Below are positions 195 to 46,328 of a DNA stretch of 64,000 nucleotides, in pieces. A model generated the notes under the pieces. That model was given only the letters and a program-made list of their open reading frames with translations. It was not told the DNA's origin and did no database searches. Made by a program: the position numbers and the translations under genes. Positions within the stretch are counted from its first letter, which is position 1. Every line of letters starts with the position of its first letter. The stretch is from the NCBI GenBank assembly GCA_039193195.1, contig JBCCWS010000012.1:62001-126000 (forward strand), read 5' to 3'. Origin of the DNA: Pseudomonadota bacterium. Lineage in GTDB: Bacteria > Pseudomonadota > Gammaproteobacteria > Steroidobacterales > JBCBZW01.

Positions 195-197
195 GCG

Positions 198-20711: not shown

Positions 20712-21379
20712 GCGCGCCCCTCAACTAGGGGCACGAACACCACAGGGTCCAACACTTCGCGCTCGAATTGATCGCCCTGGCGACGAATGCATATAAGCTG
20801 TTGAGCGCGACGCCCACCCACGGGAATCACCAAACGTCCTCCTTCGGCAAGCTGAGACTCCAGCATCGCCGGCACCCGCGCAGGTGCCGCCGTGCACAGA
20901 ATGGCATCGTAGGGGGCGTAGGTCGTCCAGCCCTCCCAGCCATCACCGTGGCGCAGGTGTACGTTTGCGAGCTTCAAAGAGCGCAGCTGCTCGCGAGCAC
21001 GGTCGTACAGCGGCCCTAGACGCTCCACGCTGTAGACCATACGCACCAGCCCCGCGAGCACGGCGGTCTGATAGCCGCAGCCCGTACCGATCTCCAGTAC
21101 CTTAGCGGGCCGCGGCTGGGTGGCGAGGATCGCTTCGGTCATGCGCGCCACCACCCAGGGTTGGGAGATGGTTTGGCCGTGCCCGATGGGCAAGGCGCTG
21201 TCCTCGTAGGCGCGACTGGCTAGCGCCTCATCGACGAAAAGATGGCGCGGAACCTCGCGCATGCGATCCAGTACCGCCGTGTCCGAAATGCCCTGCTCCG
21301 CCAGCCGCCTGACTAACCGCTCGCGCGTGCGCAGGGAGGTCATCCCGATACCCGAGGAGCCGCCACCCTCGCCTCTCAT
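20708..21379 (-). CDS. pcm: Protein-L-isoaspartate O-methyltransferase
   Basis: PCMT methylates abnormal isoaspartyl residues with S-adenosylmethionine and so starts their repair. The 223-residue product has the family motifs [21 protein letters not shown] and the SAM-binding [18 protein letters not shown]. It also has the late motifs [13 protein letters not shown] and [11 protein letters not shown] use the ATG at 21379, which overlaps the surE stop as ATGA; a second ATG at 21343 would give 211 residues, closer to E. coli. It also overlaps yqaA by 4 nt. Confidence 0.95.
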
Positions 21380-22134
21380 GCGCCCAACTCCGACACCCAG
21401 CCGGCGAGGCTCGGCAAGGCCGAGTGGCGCGTTAGGTCGACCTGAAGCGGAGTAATGGAGACGCAGCCCTCGGTGAGCGCGTGAAAGTCCGTGCCCTCCC
21501 CCGCGTCCTGCTCTTCGCCAGCAGGCCCCACCCAATAGATCCGGGCTCCACGCGGATCCGTGGACGGGATCGCCGGTTCGGCTTTGTGTCGATGGCCAAG
21601 GCGCGTGCTGCGGTACCCACCAAGATCTTCAACCGCGACAGCCGGCACGTTGACATTGAGAATCGTGTCCGCGGGCAAGGGATCGGCCATCAAGCGACGC
21701 ACCAGCTCGGCCGCCACGTGGGCACCGGCAGACATGAAACGGCTGCGCGGCGAAGCCAGGGACATCGCGAGGGCTGGTAAGCCCAGGAAGCGCCCTTCCA
21801 TCGCCGCCGCGACTGTGCCCGAGTACAGCACGTCATCGCCGAGGTTAGGTCCATGGTTGATCCCGGAGATCACCATGTCCGGCTCGAAGTCGAACAGGCC
21901 GCCGGTCACTGCCAAGTGCACGCAATCGGTGGGGGTGCCGTTGGTGAAGTAGACATCCTGCGCATCTTTCCAGACACGTACGGGCTGCTCCAAGGTGAGC
22001 GAGTTACTGGCGCCGCTGCGATTGCGATCCGGTGCCACGATGACGGTTTGCTCAACGAGCGGAGCGATTGCATCGCGCAAGGCCCGGATACCGGGTGCGC
22101 GATAGCCGTCATCGTTGCTGATCAGTACCTTCAT
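21376..22134 (-). CDS. surE: 5'/3'-nucleotidase SurE
   Basis: SurE is a metal-dependent nucleotide phosphatase associated with stationary-phase survival. The 252-residue product opens with [19 protein letters not shown], containing the metal-binding Asp pair. The [25 protein letters not shown] block is the family's second signature. It is the first gene of the surE-pcm-yqaA-nlpD run and is divergent from the Smr-domain gene. In many genomes truD directly precedes surE in the same operon; here they are separated by the Smr and crotonase genes. Confidence 0.96.
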
Positions 22135-22256: not shown

Positions 22257-22817
22257 ATGGCGGGCGGCGACGACGCTGACGAACAGCGAGAGGCTCAGCG
22301 CTTGTTTCGCGACGCGATGCGCGACGTGCGCAGGCTTGACGCGGATGATGCGCTCAGCGTGCTGCCACGAACGCACGGCCCAGCCCGCCCGCGCCCGATC
22401 GACAAGGCATCGACCGCCGATGCGTTCAGCGCGCAGTCCCTGCCGATGGTGGGTCGAGGCGAACCCCTCGAGTACCGCGCGCCCGGGGTCGCCACCGCCA
22501 CCTTGCGCCAGCTGCGAAGGGGGCAGTATCGGATCGAGGGGGCCGTCGACCTGCACGGCCTGACCACGGTCCGCGCCACCAGGGTGCTCAGCGACTTCAT
22601 GGCCGAAGCGCGCCAGGAGCGAGCGCGCTGCGTGAAAGTGGTCCACGGCAAGGGGATCGGCAGCGGCGATCGTGGGCCGGTTCTCAAGACTCTGGTCAAC
22701 GCCTGGCTGCGTGAGCAGCCCAACGTGCTCGCCTTCATCTCCGCGCCACCGGAGGACGGCGGCACGGGTGCGGCATACGTGCTGCTGCGCCGGGCCCGCC
22801 GCGAGTCCGACGACTGA
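22257..22817 (+). CDS. Smr-domain protein (SmrA/YdaL type)
   Basis: This 186-residue protein has a C-terminal Smr domain (about residues 95-185): the VDLHGLTTVRATRVLSDFM motif with the DLHG box, then CVKVVHGKGIGS, and finally DGGTGAAYVLLRR. Bacterial Smr proteins of this small class bind or cleave nucleic acid, and some have endonuclease activity. The N-terminal half is charged and probably flexible. The start is the ATG at 22257; the frame is open upstream without family character. It sits between surE (divergent) and the crotonase gene (convergent, 5-nt gap). Confidence 0.88.
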   Translation: MAGGDDADEQREAQRLFRDAMRDVRRLDADDALSVLPRTHGPARPRPIDKASTADAFSAQSLPMVGRGEPLEYRAPGVATATLRQLRRGQYRIEGAVDLHGLTTVRATRVLSDFMAEARQERARCVKVVHGKGIGSGDRGPVLKTLVNAWLREQPNVLAFISAPPEDGGTGAAYVLLRRARRESDD

Positions 22818-22822
22818 GGCCC

Positions 22823-23587
22823 TCAGCGCTTGGCCAGCCGCGCCACCAGCGCCTTCATCGAGGCCTGCGTCTCATCGCTGAACCACACCTGCGCCATGCG
22901 TTGCCCGAGGCCCTCCCCGCGCAGCTCCTCGAAACGCCTGAGCAAAGCGTGGCGGGCGTAGTGTCGCGTCTGGCACTGAGCGATGGGCGGGAACGTCGCC
23001 AGGCGGCGCGCTTCTTCGAGCGCCCGCGACACTACCTGCTCCCCCGCCACCACCTCGTCGACCAATCCGGCCTCGAGCGCTTCATCGGGCGACAACAAGG
23101 CGGCGAGGCTCAGCAGGCGCTCCGCCCGCGCGGCCCCGACCAATCTAGCGTAGGCATCGACGACGACCGGCGGCACCGGCAACCCAACCTGCACTTCGTT
23201 CAGACCGATCGTGTACTTCCCTTGCGCCATGATGCGGTAGTCGCAGAAAACCGCGAGCACCGCGCCCCCAGCTGGGCTGTGGCCAGTGATCGCCGCGACG
23301 ACGGGCACCGCGCTCGCCGCAATCGTGTGCATGAGATCGATGAAGTCCTCCCATACCTCGCCAATCGCAGGTCTATCGAGCTGCAGCAGAGTGGGCACGT
23401 CGAGCCCTGCGGTGAACATGCCTGGGCGTCCGGATAGCACTAGGGCGCCCGCGGACTCGCCAACAGCTTTCACTTGGTCTCGCAGGGTGGCGATCAGCTC
23501 GGGATCCAAAGCGTTCACCGGCGGACGCGCCATGCGCAGTTCGCGCACGGCGCCCTCGTGGTCGATCACTTCCACGATAGCGCTCAT
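22823..23587 (-). CDS. Crotonase-family protein, resembling delta3,delta2-enoyl-CoA isomerase
   Basis: This 254-residue crotonase-fold protein has the oxyanion-hole regions FTAGLDV (about 58-64) and GHSPAGGAVLAVFCDYRIM. The segment GKYTIGLNEVQVGLPVPP places a single Glu131 where mitochondrial delta3,delta2-enoyl-CoA isomerase (ECI1) has its catalytic Glu, in a similar GLNExQ context. An isomerase that moves double bonds in unsaturated acyl-CoA is therefore more likely than a hydratase. The start overlaps the truD stop as ATGA. A metabolic link to truD is not obvious. Confidence 0.78.
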   Translation of the reverse strand: MSAIVEVIDHEGAVRELRMARPPVNALDPELIATLRDQVKAVGESAGALVLSGRPGMFTAGLDVPTLLQLDRPAIGEVWEDFIDLMHTIAASAVPVVAAITGHSPAGGAVLAVFCDYRIMAQGKYTIGLNEVQVGLPVPPVVVDAYARLVGAARAERLLSLAALLSPDEALEAGLVDEVVAGEQVVSRALEEARRLATFPPIAQCQTRHYARHALLRRFEELRGEGLGQRMAQVWFSDETQASMKALVARLAKR

Positions 23588-24675
23588 CGTCGGTCTCCTG
23601 GTTCGGTCCGCGTGCGCTCACGCGCGCGATCGGGTTCGTCAATGTCGGCCAGTTCGCGCACGAGGGAAGTGGCGTAGCTGCCCGGAGGTAGGGTGAAGCG
23701 CAACAGCGCGGTACGCTCGTGCTGCTCGATCCTAGCGCCCGACGGACAGGCACGCAGGGAGCGACGCTGCTGGCGCGAGCCACTGCTGGCCAACCCCGTG
23801 GCAAACCCTTCATGCTCCTGTGCTACGACCTGCTCTAGCTGGGCAACGCCGGCTCCCGTGACGGGCTCGCCAGTGCCCCAGAGAGGACCGCTTGGGTGAA
23901 TGTCGAAGCGCCGTAAACGCTCCACCAACGCGTCGTCGATCGCGTCGACCGCAAACCAACTCTGCGACCCCGCCAGCATCGCCGCATCGCCGGCGAGTAG
24001 GCGGTTCCAAGTGCCGTGCGCTACGCGCCGCGCCAGCACTTCATCGAAGAGCAGGCTGCGAGCTGCCGAGATCGCCATGCTGCGCTGCTCGCGCTTGAGG
24101 CGCCGACCCTTTCCTGAAAACAGGGTTTGCGCGCTCTGCAGATTGCGCTGCCCGTAGCGCTGGGCACCGAAGTAATTCGGAAAGCCGTGGGCGACGAGGG
24201 TTGTGAATCTATCCGTTAGGTCCGCATCAAGTTCGCGGAGTGTTAAGGAGAAGTGATTGGCACAGTGGGTGCCACGGCGCAACTTGCGGCCGTGGCGGGC
24301 GCTACTCAGTACCTGCACTCCATCGATGGCAAGCTCCGAGAGCGGCGGATCCTCCCGGCCACCAAGGCGCAGGGAAAACCACTGACGTGCGACAGCGTGG
24401 CGGTCCTTCATGCCGCTGAAACTCACGTCAGCCGGAGGAATCTGCGCCCAGCGAGCAAGCTGACGCGCCACCCAGGACGTGTTGGCACCGGTCTTCTCCA
24501 CCCGCAGCAGCAGATGCTCGCCGATGCCGTCGGGCTCCAACCCGAGGTCCTCATCGACAACGAAGTCCTCGGGCGTAGCCCGAAGGACACAACGGGTAGC
24601 AGGCACACCCTGAGCCCGAGGACGGGCGAAGGAGGGAGGTGCCGAAGCGGTCGAGAGCGCCGGTGGCCCGCTCAC
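23584..24675 (-). CDS. truD: tRNA pseudouridine(13) synthase TruD
   Basis: TruD makes pseudouridine 13 in several tRNAs. The 363-residue product has the catalytic Asp91 in the SGMKDRHAVARQWFSL signature, the substrate-contact motif FPNYFGAQRYGQRNLQSA, and the C-terminal RFTLPPGSYATSLVRELAD. It overlaps ftsB by 4 nt upstream (ATGA) and the crotonase gene by 4 nt downstream. In Pseudomonas- and Escherichia-type genomes ispD and ispF lie between ftsB and truD; here there is no room for them. Confidence 0.96.
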   Translation of the reverse strand: MSGPPALSTASAPPSFARPRAQGVPATRCVLRATPEDFVVDEDLGLEPDGIGEHLLLRVEKTGANTSWVARQLARWAQIPPADVSFSGMKDRHAVARQWFSLRLGGREDPPLSELAIDGVQVLSSARHGRKLRRGTHCANHFSLTLRELDADLTDRFTTLVAHGFPNYFGAQRYGQRNLQSAQTLFSGKGRRLKREQRSMAISAARSLLFDEVLARRVAHGTWNRLLAGDAAMLAGSQSWFAVDAIDDALVERLRRFDIHPSGPLWGTGEPVTGAGVAQLEQVVAQEHEGFATGLASSGSRQQRRSLRACPSGARIEQHERTALLRFTLPPGSYATSLVRELADIDEPDRARERTRTEPGDRR

Positions 24676-24983
24676 GGCGTCGGCGAGGCGTTGCCGATAC
24701 GCAAGGCGCGGTTGGGCGATCGATAGAAGGTTTCGTCGTCGCGAATCATGCCGAGATCCGTGCGAGCGCGCTCTTCGATCGCCCCGAGGCCCTCTCGAAG
24801 ATCGGCGACTTCCGCATCGAGTTTAGCGTTACGCCGCGCCAACGCCGCATTCTCCTCGCGCAGCTGATCCAACTCAGCGCCAAGGCGGAACACCTCGCGC
24901 AGCCCCTGTGGGGTCAACCACAGCTGGTACTGCAGCAGGGCGAACGCTGCGATGAGGCCGATCAGCAGTGCACGGAAGGCCAT
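24672..24983 (-). CDS. ftsB: Cell division protein FtsB
   Basis: FtsB is a small bitopic membrane protein that joins FtsL and FtsQ in the divisome. The 103-residue product has one N-terminal transmembrane segment (ALLIGLIAAFALLQYQLWL). A coiled coil follows at about residues 32-66 (LGAELDQLREENAALARRNAKLDAEVADL), then a conserved IEERARTDLGMIRDDETFYR block. It begins 10 nt after eno, the usual eno-ftsB pairing, and its stop overlaps the truD start. Confidence 0.95.
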   Translation of the reverse strand: MAFRALLIGLIAAFALLQYQLWLTPQGLREVFRLGAELDQLREENAALARRNAKLDAEVADLREGLGAIEERARTDLGMIRDDETFYRSPNRALRIGNASPTP

Positions 24984-24993
24984 CGGTGCGTGC

Positions 24994-26343
<1,350 letters not shown>

Positions 26344-40688: not shown

Positions 40689-43130
40689 TTAGAACGTTTG
40701 ACCCACGGAGAACTGAAAACGCTCGACCTCGTCGAGAGGGCCCGCGTTGAGCGGCACGGCGAGACTGAATCGGAAGGTGCCGAGGGGCGCCAGCCATTCG
40801 ACGCCGATACCGACCGAACTCCGTAGCTCATTCAGATCGAACCCAAAGTCCGCCCGGGTGGCGCTTGGCGTGCTGCAGGACGTACCCACTAGATTGCCAT
40901 TGTCAGCTCGGGCCGTACAGAAATCAGTGTCGCCTTCGTAGAAGATGTTGCCGATATCGTAAAACAGGGCAAATCGCGTACTGTCGCCGAAGTTCTCTGG
41001 CGTCGGGATCAGCAGCTCTAGGTTGCCCACCACCTTGACATTACCGCCGTAGGGGTTGTTGAACGAGTCGCGCGGCCCTAGGAATCCGTTTCGATAGCCG
41101 CGCACAGACCCGGGTCCACCGGCGAAGAAGTTCTTGAACGGCGGCAGGTCGGTAGTGTCATTGAGCGGTTCCCCGTAGCCGAGCTCCGCGTTCGCTCGAA
41201 TACCCCAACGACCAGGCAGATTGATGTACTTGAGGTAGTCGTAGCGGGCGGTAACGTACTCCACGTCGCTAACCTCGGGCGCCGTTACACCGAGGGTCAG
41301 ACGCTGGCGACTGCCGCGCGTTGCGAAGATGACCCGGTTGCGGGTGTCGCGCCCCCAACCAAGGAAGGCCTCGATGGTGCGGAAGGTAGTACCGAAAAAT
41401 CCGTCGGCCACTTCAAAGGTGTCGCCGTTGTTGAGCACGAAGGCACGGGCCTGCTCGGCGCTGAACTGGCCGGTGACGAGATCGGCGCTCTGATACGCCA
41501 ATCCGTAGCGGAAGAATCCGAACTCGGAGATTGGCACACCGAATTCAAAGCTGGCATTGATCGTCTCGGTCGAGAAGTCCGAAGCACCGATGATGAACTG
41601 CGTGGAATCGCGATAACCCAAGCCTAGCGTTAGCTGGACGCCGTCCTTGGTCCAATAGGGGTTGGTATGGGAGACCTGCGCTGAGGTCACGAACTGGCCC
41701 AAGTTGAGGTCGGCAGCGAGACGAGTGCCGCGGCCGAGGAAGTTGGTGTGGGTGAAGTTGCCGTTTAGAAGAATGCCCTGCGTGCCCGAGAAACCGATAC
41801 CGCCACCGAACTGCCCCGGCAGGCCTTCCTCGATTTCCATCTCCACGTCTACCAGGTCGTCTGACCCCGGCACCGGCACGGTCTCCGTCGACACGTTGGT
41901 GACGAACGGCAGGCGACGAACGCGTTGCTCAGAGCGCTCTAGCTGCACGTTGGATAGGTAGCCCCCTTCCAACTGACGCATCTCGCGGCGAAAAACATCA
42001 TCGTCCACTGTCGTCGTGCCGTTGAAGTTCACACGACGCACGTACACCCGCTTGCCAGGTTCAACGAAGAAACTGATGGCGACTTCGCGAGTCTCCGGGT
42101 TTATGTCGGGAATCGGGTTGATGTTGGCGAACGCATAGCCCTCTTGGCCCAAGCGAAAGCCCATCAACTCAGTGCTTTGCGTGACCTGCTTGCGCGAGAA
42201 GGTCTCGCCTGGCTTCGACAGGACAAGGCTCAGGAGGTCTTCTTCCGGCACCACTAAATCGCCGGTCATGCGCACTTCGGAGATCGTGTAGCGTTCACCT
42301 TCCTCTATGTTCACCGTGATGAACATGTCCTGCTTGTCGGGGGAGATCGCCACCTGAGTGGACTCGATTTCGAAGGAAGCAAAGCCGCGGTCCATGTAGA
42401 AGGAGCGCAGGCTTTCGAGGTCGCCCTGTAGGGCCTCGCGCGCGTAGCGATCGCGTTTGTTCAAGAACGAGAGCAGTGTGGGCGTGCTCAGCTGGAACTC
42501 ATCCAGCAGCTCCGTGTCCTTGAAGTTGTCGTTTCCAACGATATTGATCTGTCGAATGCGTGCGCGCACGCCCTCTTCGACGAACACCTGAATGCTTACT
42601 CGGTTGTCCGGCAGGTCGGTTACGGAGGTATCGACTGTGACCCCGTACTTGCCACGCTCGAAGTACTGTTGAGTGAGAAACTGGGTCACGCTGTCGAGAA
42701 CGGAGCGATCGAAGGAACGGCCAGGGGAGAGGCCGACCTCGCGCAGGGACCCGAGGAGATCCTCAGTTTTGATGTCCTCGTTGCCGCTGATGTCGAAGGA
42801 GGCGATCGACGGCCGCTCGCGTACCACCACCACTAGCGTGTTGCCGTCGCGGCGGAACTCAATCCCATCGAAGAACCCCTGCGCGTAGAGCGCCCGAAAG
42901 GCCTCGCGCAGACGGACGGGGTTTAGTTGATCTCCGATGTTGATCGGCAGGTAGTTGTACACGGTGCCTTCAGAGATGCGACGCAAGCCCTCGACGCGCA
43001 AGTCCTGCACGGTGAAGTTGGCATTCGCTGCGACCTGAGCATAGGCAGGTACGAAAAAGCACGCGAGCCAGCCGATCGCGAGGCAACCGAACAGCGCCCT
43101 CGCCTTCCTTGGCGCGAGCCAATGCATCAT
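40689..43130 (-). CDS. bamA: Outer membrane protein assembly factor BamA
   Basis: BamA is the core of the machine that inserts beta-barrel proteins into the outer membrane. The 813-residue product has a signal peptide ending at YAQ, five POTRA domains (about residues 38-440; FTVQDLRVEGLRRISEGTVYNYLPI is the first) and a 16-stranded barrel. It has the VRGYR lid motif in FAGGPGSVRGYRNGFLGPRD, and a C-terminal Phe (RFQFSVGQTF). It overlaps the rseP stop by 4 nt. Confidence 0.98.
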   Translation of the reverse strand: MMHWLAPRKARALFGCLAIGWLACFFVPAYAQVAANANFTVQDLRVEGLRRISEGTVYNYLPINIGDQLNPVRLREAFRALYAQGFFDGIEFRRDGNTLVVVVRERPSIASFDISGNEDIKTEDLLGSLREVGLSPGRSFDRSVLDSVTQFLTQQYFERGKYGVTVDTSVTDLPDNRVSIQVFVEEGVRARIRQINIVGNDNFKDTELLDEFQLSTPTLLSFLNKRDRYAREALQGDLESLRSFYMDRGFASFEIESTQVAISPDKQDMFITVNIEEGERYTISEVRMTGDLVVPEEDLLSLVLSKPGETFSRKQVTQSTELMGFRLGQEGYAFANINPIPDINPETREVAISFFVEPGKRVYVRRVNFNGTTTVDDDVFRREMRQLEGGYLSNVQLERSEQRVRRLPFVTNVSTETVPVPGSDDLVDVEMEIEEGLPGQFGGGIGFSGTQGILLNGNFTHTNFLGRGTRLAADLNLGQFVTSAQVSHTNPYWTKDGVQLTLGLGYRDSTQFIIGASDFSTETINASFEFGVPISEFGFFRYGLAYQSADLVTGQFSAEQARAFVLNNGDTFEVADGFFGTTFRTIEAFLGWGRDTRNRVIFATRGSRQRLTLGVTAPEVSDVEYVTARYDYLKYINLPGRWGIRANAELGYGEPLNDTTDLPPFKNFFAGGPGSVRGYRNGFLGPRDSFNNPYGGNVKVVGNLELLIPTPENFGDSTRFALFYDIGNIFYEGDTDFCTARADNGNLVGTSCSTPSATRADFGFDLNELRSSVGIGVEWLAPLGTFRFSLAVPLNAGPLDEVERFQFSVGQTF

Positions 43131-44500
43131 CCGATAAGCCTCGACAGGTCGTTGTACAGGGCGAGGGTCATGAGAGCGAGCACGGCGAAGATCCCCACCT
43201 GCTGCCCGAGGAGCTGGACGCGATCAGACAGCGGACTGCCACGAACTCCCTCGATTGCCGTGAAGACGATTTGACCGCCGTCCAGCATGGGAACGGGCAT
43301 CAGGTTGATCAGGCCCAAGCTGACGCTGACCAGCGCCAAGAAGCGGACGAAGTCGACGAACCCGCTGCGAAAGGTATCACCGGCGTAGACCGCGATATTG
43401 ATCGGGCCGGAAAGGTTCTCCACGGAGACCTGTCCGAACAGCATGCGCCGAAACAGATCGAGGGTCAGACTGGTCATCTCCCAGGTCTTGGCCGCTGCGT
43501 TGCGGGCCGCGACTACGGGCCCAAAGCGCTGCTGCGACCACAGCTGATCGATCGTCTCCGACGAAAGTGGCGATGCCGCGACGCCGGCGTAACCTACGCG
43601 CTCTTCGCCATCCATCTGCTCGCCCAAGGTGATGGCCAGGACGGCTTCACTGCCGTCGGCCCGCACCACCGTGAGCGAGGTGCTGCGACCGGGGAACGGC
43701 CGCACCTGATCGACGAAATCGCTCCAAACGTCCACCGGTGCATCGCCGACCGCGAGGATCCGATCACCAGGCAGCACGCCAGCGCTCGCCGCGGGCCCAT
43801 CGCTCGGCACCTCGCCGATGATCGGCGGAACATCGGGAATCCACACGTTGAGCCCGAGTCCGGGCAGTAGCTCACCAGGCCGCGTGAGCTCGCGCAATGA
43901 CGCAGTTGGCCGGAGCACCACCGAATCGCGCGCTCCGGAAGCGTATCGCTCGACCGTCAGGGGAACCTCGCCGTTATCGAGGACGGTGCGATAGATGGCG
44001 AGCAGCGTTCCCTCCCAGGTCTGCACATCGTTGCCGTCCACGGCGAGGATCAGATCCTGCACTTGGAGGCCGGCCTCGGCCGCCGGCGTACCCGCGTCGG
44101 TGGCACCGACGAAGGGCCGCAGGCCGGGCATGCCCACCAGAAAGATCAGCCAGAACGCTGCGATGGCGAACAGGAAATTCGCCGCCGGCCCGGCAAAGAG
44201 CACTGCGATGCGGTAGGAAGGCGGCCGCCGGTTGTAGGACCGGTGCACCTCATGCTCGGCGACCGGGCCCTCTCGCTCATCGAGCATCTTCACGTAGCCG
44301 CCGAGCGGAAGGCTGCCCAGCACGTACTCCGTTCTATCGGCGCCGGCAACACGGCGAAACAAAGGCTTACCGAAGCCAACGGAGAACCGCAGCACCTTGA
44401 AACCCAGGCGCCGTGCCATCCAGTAATGACCGTACTCGTGCACGGCGACCAGCAGGCCAACCGCGAACAAGAACGCAAAGACGTAGGTGAGTATCGTCAT
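43127..44500 (-). CDS. rseP: Site-2 zinc protease RseP
   Basis: RseP is an intramembrane protease that makes the second cut in RseA, freeing sigma-E. The 457-residue product has the zinc motif HEYGH (His21, Glu22, His25) and the second metal motif LMPVPMLDGGQ near the C-terminus. Two PDZ domains lie between them (VQDLILAVDGNDVQTW and AGVLPGDRILAVGDAPVDVW). It precedes bamA with a 4-nt overlap. Normally dxr lies between cdsA and rseP; here only 154 nt separate them, and they carry promoter-like elements and hairpins. Confidence 0.97.
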   Translation of the reverse strand: MTILTYVFAFLFAVGLLVAVHEYGHYWMARRLGFKVLRFSVGFGKPLFRRVAGADRTEYVLGSLPLGGYVKMLDEREGPVAEHEVHRSYNRRPPSYRIAVLFAGPAANFLFAIAAFWLIFLVGMPGLRPFVGATDAGTPAAEAGLQVQDLILAVDGNDVQTWEGTLLAIYRTVLDNGEVPLTVERYASGARDSVVLRPTASLRELTRPGELLPGLGLNVWIPDVPPIIGEVPSDGPAASAGVLPGDRILAVGDAPVDVWSDFVDQVRPFPGRSTSLTVVRADGSEAVLAITLGEQMDGEERVGYAGVAASPLSSETIDQLWSQQRFGPVVAARNAAAKTWEMTSLTLDLFRRMLFGQVSVENLSGPINIAVYAGDTFRSGFVDFVRFLALVSVSLGLINLMPVPMLDGGQIVFTAIEGVRGSPLSDRVQLLGQQVGIFAVLALMTLALYNDLSRLIG

Positions 44501-44548
44501 CGTGTTACTCGAGACCGTTTCTTACTCGCAGATGCGACCGCGCTGCCC

Positions 44549-44636
44549 GTCGCGCAAACGCGACAGTATAAGGCGTCCTCAGGCGCGACCGGGCCCTGGT
44601 CGCCTGATTCAGACCCGCCGCCCCTGGTGTTGGTTC
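44549..44636 (-). promoter_or_regulatory. Regulatory elements between cdsA and rseP (candidate sigma-E promoter, hairpins, -10)
   Basis: This gap stands where dxr normally lies. On the minus strand GAACCA (44636-44631) is followed after 17 nt by TCTGA (44613-44609), a near match to the sigma-E consensus with one extra spacer base. Next comes a stem TCAGGCGACC/GGTCGCGCCTGA (44607-44579) with a 2-nt bulge, a TATACT -10-like box (44570-44565) without a clear -35, and a GTCGCG-TTTG-CGCGAC hairpin (44564-44549). Sigma-E control of rseP and bamA is known in E. coli, so a promoter here is plausible. The specific assignment is tentative. Confidence 0.4.
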
Positions 44637-44654
44637 CAGTGCGCACCACCGTCC

Positions 44655-45503
44655 TCACGCTGCACCACCCGCCAGCGCAAGCCATAGCGCCCAGGCGGGA
44701 GCGGTGGCACAGAAGCTGTCGATGCGGTCCAACACGCCGCCGTGGCCCGGCAGCAAGGTACCGCTGTCCTTAACACCCGCACGCCGCTTGAACAGGCTGA
44801 CCGTCAGATCCCCGAGCACGGAAACAAGCGCAATGACGACCGCCGCGAGGAGGACCGCCGGCGGTGTATAGACGGGCAACAGCAGCAGGGTCGCGGCGAC
44901 TGCAAGGGTCCAGACGACGCCGCCCAAAAGGCCCTCCAGCGTCTTGCCTGGACTCACCCGCGGCAGGAGCCGGTGTCGACCGAAGATGCGGCCGATCGTG
45001 TAGGCCCCAATGTCCGCCGCCACCGTGAGGCCGATGATCGTCAACATGGCCCAGCCGCCGGACGATTGCGCGTGTACCGCGCCGAGGCCCAACCACGCCG
45101 GCACCAAGCAAAGCGCCCCCGCTAACGCGACCGCCCAGCGCTGCCAGCGGGTGCGCTGCTCCGGCGCCCGCGCTGCCTCATCGATGCCATCAACCCCAGC
45201 CCTCAACACGATGACCAAGGCGAGGGACCACCACACTGCTGCGATCCACCAAATGACGATCCCCACGCCGGGATCCCGCGCCGTGGCGAACCAGGCAAGG
45301 CTCATGGCGAGCGCAATTATCGCCACATAAAGCGCCCGATGAATCTGGCCAACCCGCCGGTCGATCAGCGCCGCCCACTCCCAGGCGCCCGCGAGCACCA
45401 GCAACCCGATTACCGCGACCGCGGACCAGCGCGGCCCGAGTAGGATGCTCGCGCCCACGGCCGTAGCGAGCGCGATGCCGGTGAGTGCGCGCTTGATCAG
45501 CAC
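44655..45503 (-). CDS. cdsA: Phosphatidate cytidylyltransferase
   Basis: CdsA makes CDP-diacylglycerol from CTP and phosphatidic acid at the inner membrane, the branch point of phospholipid synthesis. The 282-residue polytopic protein has about eight hydrophobic segments and the family signature SVLGDLTVSLFKRRAGVKDSGTLLPGHGGVLDRIDS near the C-terminus, with the Mg-binding Asp residues. The start is GTG at 45503. It follows uppS by 57 nt; the usual next gene, dxr, is missing. Confidence 0.96.
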   Translation of the reverse strand: MLIKRALTGIALATAVGASILLGPRWSAVAVIGLLVLAGAWEWAALIDRRVGQIHRALYVAIIALAMSLAWFATARDPGVGIVIWWIAAVWWSLALVIVLRAGVDGIDEAARAPEQRTRWQRWAVALAGALCLVPAWLGLGAVHAQSSGGWAMLTIIGLTVAADIGAYTIGRIFGRHRLLPRVSPGKTLEGLLGGVVWTLAVAATLLLLPVYTPPAVLLAAVVIALVSVLGDLTVSLFKRRAGVKDSGTLLPGHGGVLDRIDSFCATAPAWALWLALAGGAA

Positions 45504-45560: not shown

Positions 45561-46328
45561 CTACGCGCCAGGTGCCTGACCGACTAGACGGCCGAAGCGC
45601 CGCTCGCGGTGCGCGAAGAACTCGAGGGCTTCATCGAGGGCGGTCGCATCGAAATCGGGCCAGAGGCAGTCGGTGAAATGCAGCTCCGTATACGCCAAAT
45701 TCCAGAGCAAGAAGTTGCTCACGCGACGCTCGCCACCGGTCCGGATGAACAGGTCTGGGTCCGGCAGCTGGGCCAGCGCGAGGCGCTCTTGAAGGTGTTC
45801 TTCACCGATCTGCTCCGCGTCGAGCTTGCCGTCTTTCACGTCGATGGCGAGCTGCTTGGCCGCCTGTGCCAAGTCCCAGCGCCCACCGTAGGAAACCGCC
45901 ACGACAAGGCGCAGGCCCGCGTTGTTGAGCGTGGTCTGCTCAGCCTCGAACATCAGCTTGCGCAGCTGGGGGTTGAGCGCTTCGCGGTTGCCGACAAACT
46001 CCAGGCGTACGCCGTTGCGATCCAGTTCTGCGATCTCGCTGCGCAAGGCCTCAGCAAACAAAGTCATTAGGAGGCCCACCTCGCGGCGCGGCCGCTCCCA
46101 GTTCTCGCTTGAAAACGCGAACAGCGTGAGCGCTTCTACGCCACGATCGGCACACGCCCGCACCACTGCTCGGGTGGCTTTCACGCCGGCTCGGTGACCC
46201 GCGCTACGTGGTAGGGAACGATTCGTGGCCCAACGCCCGTTTCCATCCATGATAATGGCCACGTGCTTCGGGAGCCCACCCGGCTCGCGAGGTAGGGGTG
46301 CGTTGGCTGCACTGGCCGGCGTACTCAC
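45561..46328 (-). CDS. uppS: Undecaprenyl diphosphate synthase
   Basis: UppS extends farnesyl diphosphate with eight IPP units to the lipid carrier used for peptidoglycan and O-antigen. The 255-residue product has the catalytic Asp28 in HVAIIMDGNGRWA and the substrate motifs GHRAGVKA and LTLFAFSSENWERP. The C-terminal DLFIRTGGERRVSNFLLW is also present. It starts with GTG at 46328, 3 nt after frr. It shows that the organism still needs IPP although the usual neighbouring MEP-pathway gene is absent. Confidence 0.97.
   Translation of the reverse strand: MSTPASAANAPLPREPGGLPKHVAIIMDGNGRWATNRSLPRSAGHRAGVKATRAVVRACADRGVEALTLFAFSSENWERPRREVGLLMTLFAEALRSEIAELDRNGVRLEFVGNREALNPQLRKLMFEAEQTTLNNAGLRLVVAVSYGGRWDLAQAAKQLAIDVKDGKLDAEQIGEEHLQERLALAQLPDPDLFIRTGGERRVSNFLLWNLAYTELHFTDCLWPDFDATALDEALEFFAHRERRFGRLVGQAPGA

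Follow-up and report, generated by a model that had tools for sequence, protein, structure and literature searches.

The window, by which we mean the whole stretch of 64,000 nucleotides analysed, carries on its minus strand an eno gene followed by ftsB, truD and an enoyl-CoA hydratase-like gene. Reading of the sequence showed that the stop codon of ftsB (TGA) and the start codon of truD (GTG) share positions 24672-24675, which read GTGA on that strand. The features of this locus are the following:

21376..22134, minus strand: surE (NF001489, 360.8 bits)
22823..23587, minus strand: enoyl-CoA hydratase-like gene directly 3' of truD (label by inspection)
23584..24675, minus strand: truD, 363 aa, GTG start (NCBIfam TruD model, 394.7 bits against a cut-off of 413; Pfam TruD above its cut-off)
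24672..24675, minus strand: GTGA overlap, the site occupied by ispD-ispF in MEP relatives (compared with 30 truD loci)
24672..24983, minus strand: ftsB, 103 aa (NCBIfam FtsB model, 99.1 bits against a cut-off of 101; position after eno)
24994..26298, minus strand: eno (TIGR01060, 638 bits)

Neither ispD (about 0.7 kb) nor ispF (about 0.5 kb) is present between ftsB and truD, and the overlap of four bases leaves no room for them. This bears out an earlier reading made from the letters of the DNA (hereafter, the sequence-only reading), according to which both genes were missing at a site where the stop codon of ftsB overlaps the start codon of truD, while eno, ftsB, truD and surE were all present. 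The latter genes are identified by NCBIfam model matches, those of FtsB and TruD being slightly under the curated cut-offs of their best models. The same reading gave the overlap as ATGA; the stop/start overlap stands but the letters do not, the start codon of truD being GTG. A putative Smr-domain-like gene (label by reading) lies on the opposite strand ahead of surE, and tblastn placed an enoyl-CoA hydratase-like gene 3' of truD in some relatives too.

The window contains a second and a third empty site, as well as a gene for a user of isoprenoid precursors:

195..197, minus strand: third empty site, with acpS (from 194 leftwards, leaving the window) directly after recO
43127..44500, minus strand: rseP (TIGR00054, 330 bits)
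44501..44654, minus strand: second empty site, 154 bases between cdsA and rseP, where dxr lies in MEP relatives
44655..45503, minus strand: cdsA (profile match)
45561..46328, minus strand: uppS, IPP/FPP user (TIGR00055, 281 bits)

Ten MEP relatives show the order cdsA-dxr-rseP, in contrast to cdsA-rseP without dxr in the window. The claims that dxr had gone from its conserved site and that the window still encodes uppS were thus correct. The loss of pdxJ, also claimed, is true of the site only: the gene adjoins recO in most relatives examined and is absent between recO and acpS in the window, but it has not been lost from the genome, which carries a divergent copy on another contig, identified by profile models and solved relatives (G000:C24:23397-24146, equivalent to L248:8386-9159, minus strand).

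The genome of the window (G000) is a draft of 6.71 Mb in 113 contigs, 98.7% complete and with 1.6% contamination. We compared it with 58 relatives, one a congener (G001) and the others members of its order, and assessed the gene content of these 59 genomes by targeted family searches. Searches of the entire G000 genome recovered none of dxr, ispD, ispF, ispG and ispH and no true dxs, and no ispE was present among its five GHMP-kinase matches, so that the predicted absence of the seven MEP genes was confirmed. The best dxs match reached 36.4 bits over 61 residues, as compared with ~390-410 bits for true dxs, and adjoins dehydrogenase E1-beta/E2-like genes. The same searches find MEP genes in relatives and control genomes: true IspD, IspF, IspG, IspH, Dxr and Dxs were present in 24 of the 59 genomes, with single genes missing from some MEP drafts (e.g. 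G046, 79% complete, and G056, 73%), and in none of the other 35. IspD was counted only at about 185 bits or more and at full length; related nucleotidyltransferases match in every genome. One such match in a mevalonate genome, G016 (86.7 bits; G016:C35:6740-7405, equivalent to L273:4735-5424), was not counted as IspD; it adjoins sugar-epimerase and glycosyltransferase-like genes and is probably not isoprenoid-related. That MEP genes were present but relocated, or were missed through incompleteness of a draft in 113 contigs, is hardly credible and is refuted by the search results, since at 98.7% completeness the searches would have had to overlook seven genes spread over several unlinked sites, and to do so in G000, G001 and 33 further mevalonate genomes of the order, although they find these genes in MEP relatives and the dxr and ispDF sites are seen to be empty.

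Across the order, the state of the pathway can be read beside truD. We read 30 same-order truD loci, as the sequence-only reading had suggested by calling for a comparison with related genomes. In all 14 from MEP genomes ispF lies beside truD, with ispD and ftsB too wherever the contig or fetched stretch reaches (ftsB-ispD-ispF-truD), and in all 16 from non-MEP genomes FtsB comes directly before TruD (eno-ftsB-truD). Since the 30 loci match the pathway state without exception, the ftsB-truD junction is a regular sign of that state in the order and not an oddity of one assembly. All 35 genomes without MEP genes have HMG-CoA reductase (HMGR), which is in a fused frame in 34 and is a contig-edge fragment in the other one.

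The gene order eno-ftsB-ispD-ispF-truD-surE is that of Escherichia and Pseudomonas. Because of this Escherichia-type order and the matching dxr site, we argue that the junction reflects loss of MEP genes. The reverse direction, with ftsB-truD ancestral and ispDF gained at this site by the MEP relatives, finds some room in the TruD tree of 35 genomes, a single-gene tree that is weak at its base and does not settle the direction; about 5-7 pathway changes appeared in most bootstrap trees, only two of them forced by well-supported branches. However, we regard such a gain as very improbable, given the order in Escherichia and Pseudomonas and the same pattern shown independently at the dxr site; it is also less likely that many families gained the genes in parallel at one site than that they were lost. 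Repeated MEP/mevalonate replacement in the order is likely, and one family (f4) holds both pathway states.

The sequence-only reading also anticipated a mevalonate route, and genome searches indeed found HMG-CoA synthase (HMGS), HMGR, mevalonate kinase (MVK), a phosphomevalonate kinase (PMK)-like kinase, diphosphomevalonate decarboxylase (MVD) and IPP isomerase (IDI) in G000. Three of the five GHMP-kinase matches lie within 3.7 kb of one contig, in a hopanoid (hpn) cluster (L018, G000:C6:25000-44900) composed of a squalene synthase-like gene, hpnG, hpnN, hpnA, MVD, a triple fusion, IDI, hpnH, hpnB and hpnM. Its mevalonate genes, and the domains of the fusion, are as follows:

L018:8679-9674: MVD (TIGR01240, 263 bits against a cut-off of 171.35)
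L018:9671-13066: 1131-residue PMK-HMGR-MVK protein, single reading frame
Residues ~3-366 of 1131, N-terminal: PMK-like GHMP kinase domain (TIGR01220)
Residues ~376-802, middle: class II HMG-CoA reductase domain (TIGR00532, 410.8 bits against a cut-off of 259.95)
Residues ~828-1129, C-terminal: mevalonate kinase domain (TIGR00549, 310.7 bits against a cut-off of 163.05)
L018:13059-13616: IDI, type 1 (NF002995, 166.2 bits against a cut-off of 127)

With MVD directly upstream and IDI directly downstream of the fusion, the three genes overlap end to start. HMGS stands alone on another contig (G000:C20, match 22558-23058; TIGR01835, 369.8 bits against a cut-off of 360.35; closest solved chain, 5hwp). 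Judged by these matches, every step from HMGS on has a candidate enzyme in G000 and, together with a thiolase, which is a common enzyme, the set would be a complete classical mevalonate pathway. HMGS is of two sorts in the order, one of ~413-440 residues (f1, f5 and f16) and one of ~490-530 residues with weak scores, which adjoins the HMGR-MVK gene in f6 and f7; in three f4 genomes, G019 and G038 the fusion is present and HMGS was not detected. Another GHMP kinase match of G000 (375 codons; G000:C4:230000-242000, L020) lies amid genes putatively assigned, by inspection, to tetrahydromethanopterin-linked C1 metabolism.

The HMGR domain of the fusion could be aligned from end to end with the solved enzyme 1qax, and the known catalytic Glu, Lys, Asp and His are conserved in it. 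The N-terminal kinase scored 116.8 bits with TIGR01220 when taken alone and 156.9 in the whole protein, both under the cut-off of 165.7. TIGR01220 was the only NCBIfam model matching this domain alone at E 1e-25, and the best solved relative was 3k17; on the basis of best model, context and elimination, we infer that it is a PMK. The same triple frame, intact through both linkers, occurs in G001. The HMGR domains of the two genomes are identical in 421 of 422 residues, with 139 codons that differ silently, and there are 113 such codons in PMK and 102 in MVK (over 350 in total). In the mevalonate contig stretch, GC amounts to 65.1% and the tetranucleotide correlation with the window to 0.993, as compared with 0.90-0.92 for clusters of other genera with similar GC. 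Contamination of this contig was rejected on account of its composition and the presence of the fusion in G001. Since the frame is kept in G001 and the composition is like that of the window, the triple fusion is neither a frame error nor a contamination; gene content, gene order, the single reading frame and its conservation in a second species are direct observations.

The long frame could be incidental, with PMK and HMGR-MVK made separately from internal starts, as might be thought from the relatives, whose kinase and HMGR-MVK are encoded by two genes, one in-frame stop codon apart in some cases (e.g. L074). We consider this unlikely, because neither of the two species shows a stop or a frame change and the first linker, of 14 codons, has just two nucleotide differences between them and 13 of 14 residues identical. 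Even so, internal translation starts or proteolysis could give separate enzymes.

The HMGR search detected frames of ~730-850 codons in almost every mevalonate genome of the order. These long frames are HMGR-MVK double fusions, and the PMK-like kinase is encoded separately upstream wherever a homologue was detected; in G016, a squalene/phytoene synthase-like gene lies between the PMK-like and HMGR-MVK genes (L067:7477-8631). The triple fusion, used as query against public genomes, returned 80 loci, from Wenzhouxiangella, Nevskia, Dyella, Dokdonella, Rhodanobacter, a Marinobacter and Natronospirales, as well as from metagenome-assembled genomes labelled Acidobacteriota and Calditrichota and single ones labelled otherwise. 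The architectures in the 124 entries examined included HMGR-MVK (106), PMK-HMGR-MVK (2, G000 and G001) and HMGR-MVK-IDI (1); no genome beyond the two of the window's genus showed PMK-HMGR-MVK. The HMGR-MVK-IDI triple fusion has 955 residues, stop to stop, on a contig labelled Desulfobacterales (L149:2231-5095). Among 369 gammaproteobacterial genomes from across the class, an HMGR match was present in 73 and a fused frame in about nine; a tenth long frame (L230:1291-3831, in G295) is a class I HMGR of 847 codons that runs into an unrelated C-terminal segment, phosphotransferase-like by its motifs.

In the HMGR tree, all fused sequences formed one group apart from stand-alone HMGRs (99% SH-aLRT), the single unfused member of this group being cut by a contig end, and the two triple fusions formed one branch within it. 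The G000 protein, with HMGR and MVK in one frame and its PMK not separate, has its HMGR inside this HMGR-MVK clade. The simplest reading is that HMGR-MVK arose by one fusion event, that fusion and operon then spread together, horizontal transfer accounting for part of this, and that the kinase was afterwards added in front in this genus. As only an in-frame stop codon lies between the PMK-like and HMGR-MVK genes in some relatives, a single change could join them.

We believe that, with high probability, this bacterium relies for its IPP and DMAPP on a complete mevalonate pathway with a three-step fusion, that it has lost the whole MEP pathway and that the ftsB-truD junction is one scar of this loss. 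The stand-alone synthase would supply HMG-CoA, which the HMGR domain of the fusion would reduce to mevalonate; the MVK domain would then yield mevalonate-5-phosphate and the N-terminal kinase mevalonate-5-diphosphate. The decarboxylase encoded upstream and the type-1 isomerase encoded downstream would complete IPP and DMAPP. The operon is flanked by hpn genes, and squalene and hopanoids therefore probably take up much of the product; the remainder would serve UppS and quinones. Judged from sequence, all three fusion domains would be active, and the fusion might confer an advantage, for instance a fixed stoichiometry or a local handing-on of intermediates.

MvaE of enterococci and streptococci is an acetoacetyl-CoA thiolase-HMGR fusion. 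Like the protein described here, it is a mevalonate fusion with a class II HMGR, covering two steps; however, its HMGR is joined to the upstream thiolase, whereas that of G000 is joined to two downstream kinases. Isoprenoid enzymes are also fused in the bacterial IspDF (PMC13001223), but these belong to non-consecutive steps of the MEP pathway, in contrast to the three consecutive mevalonate steps of the G000 protein. In Gammaproteobacteria, a passage of PMC7691419 notes the mevalonate pathway and squalene synthase for Wenzhouxiangella, with no mention there of a fusion. The Wenzhouxiangella loci that we read carry the HMGR-MVK fusion beside MVD, PMK and IDI, with PMK as a separate gene, unlike the fused one of G000. 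Legionella and Coxiella, which the sequence-only reading had brought forward as a parallel, are likewise Gammaproteobacteria reported to have mevalonate genes and no MEP pathway. The parallel holds to that extent and is otherwise loose, since a 2026 survey found all Legionella species analysed to lack phosphomevalonate kinase (PMC13001223), whereas G000 has a candidate kinase and, indeed, a candidate for every step from HMGS. The patchiness of MEP and mevalonate pathways is well reviewed (PMC13001223), and neither the HMGR-MVK nor the PMK-HMGR-MVK fusion turned up in the open-access literature searched, which is weak evidence of absence. We rate the pathway replacement as ordinary and known, and the enzyme architecture as new. 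Within a single order, the 59 genomes let one follow the exchange of MEP for mevalonate gene by gene, with corresponding empty sites and either state represented, so that the switch becomes accessible to study. PMK-HMGR-MVK would be a natural enzyme covering three steps in mid-pathway and, if active as predicted, could be put to use directly in mevalonate engineering. These bacteria should be insensitive to fosmidomycin and other MEP inhibitors.

PdxJ condenses DXP with an amino-acetone phosphate. It is kept in 34 of the 35 mevalonate genomes of the order and DXP synthase in none, and this retention of pdxJ with loss of dxs raises the direct question of the origin of DXP. A methylthioadenosine-linked route is known from Rhodospirillum, and a route of that kind is one possible source; a new enzyme is another, and so is a side activity of another thiamine-dependent enzyme. 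Suppressors of dxs loss are cited in PMC13001223. No transketolase-like gene was linked to pdxJ in the surroundings inspected. We put forward, as a tentative proposal that we hold less probable than its failure, that the mevalonate users of the order make vitamin B6 via PdxJ without DXP synthase, through an unrecognised DXP-forming enzyme or another PdxJ substrate, and that, alongside this, a single polypeptide carries out three mevalonate steps in the window's genus. The divergent PdxJ occurs in this genus, in families f5 and f16 and in part of f6, at other genomic places. Its sequence near the N terminus is NVNK instead of the usual NVDH (Asn-Lys for Asp-His), and the Glu, Glu and His positions that we presume to be catalytic are conserved.
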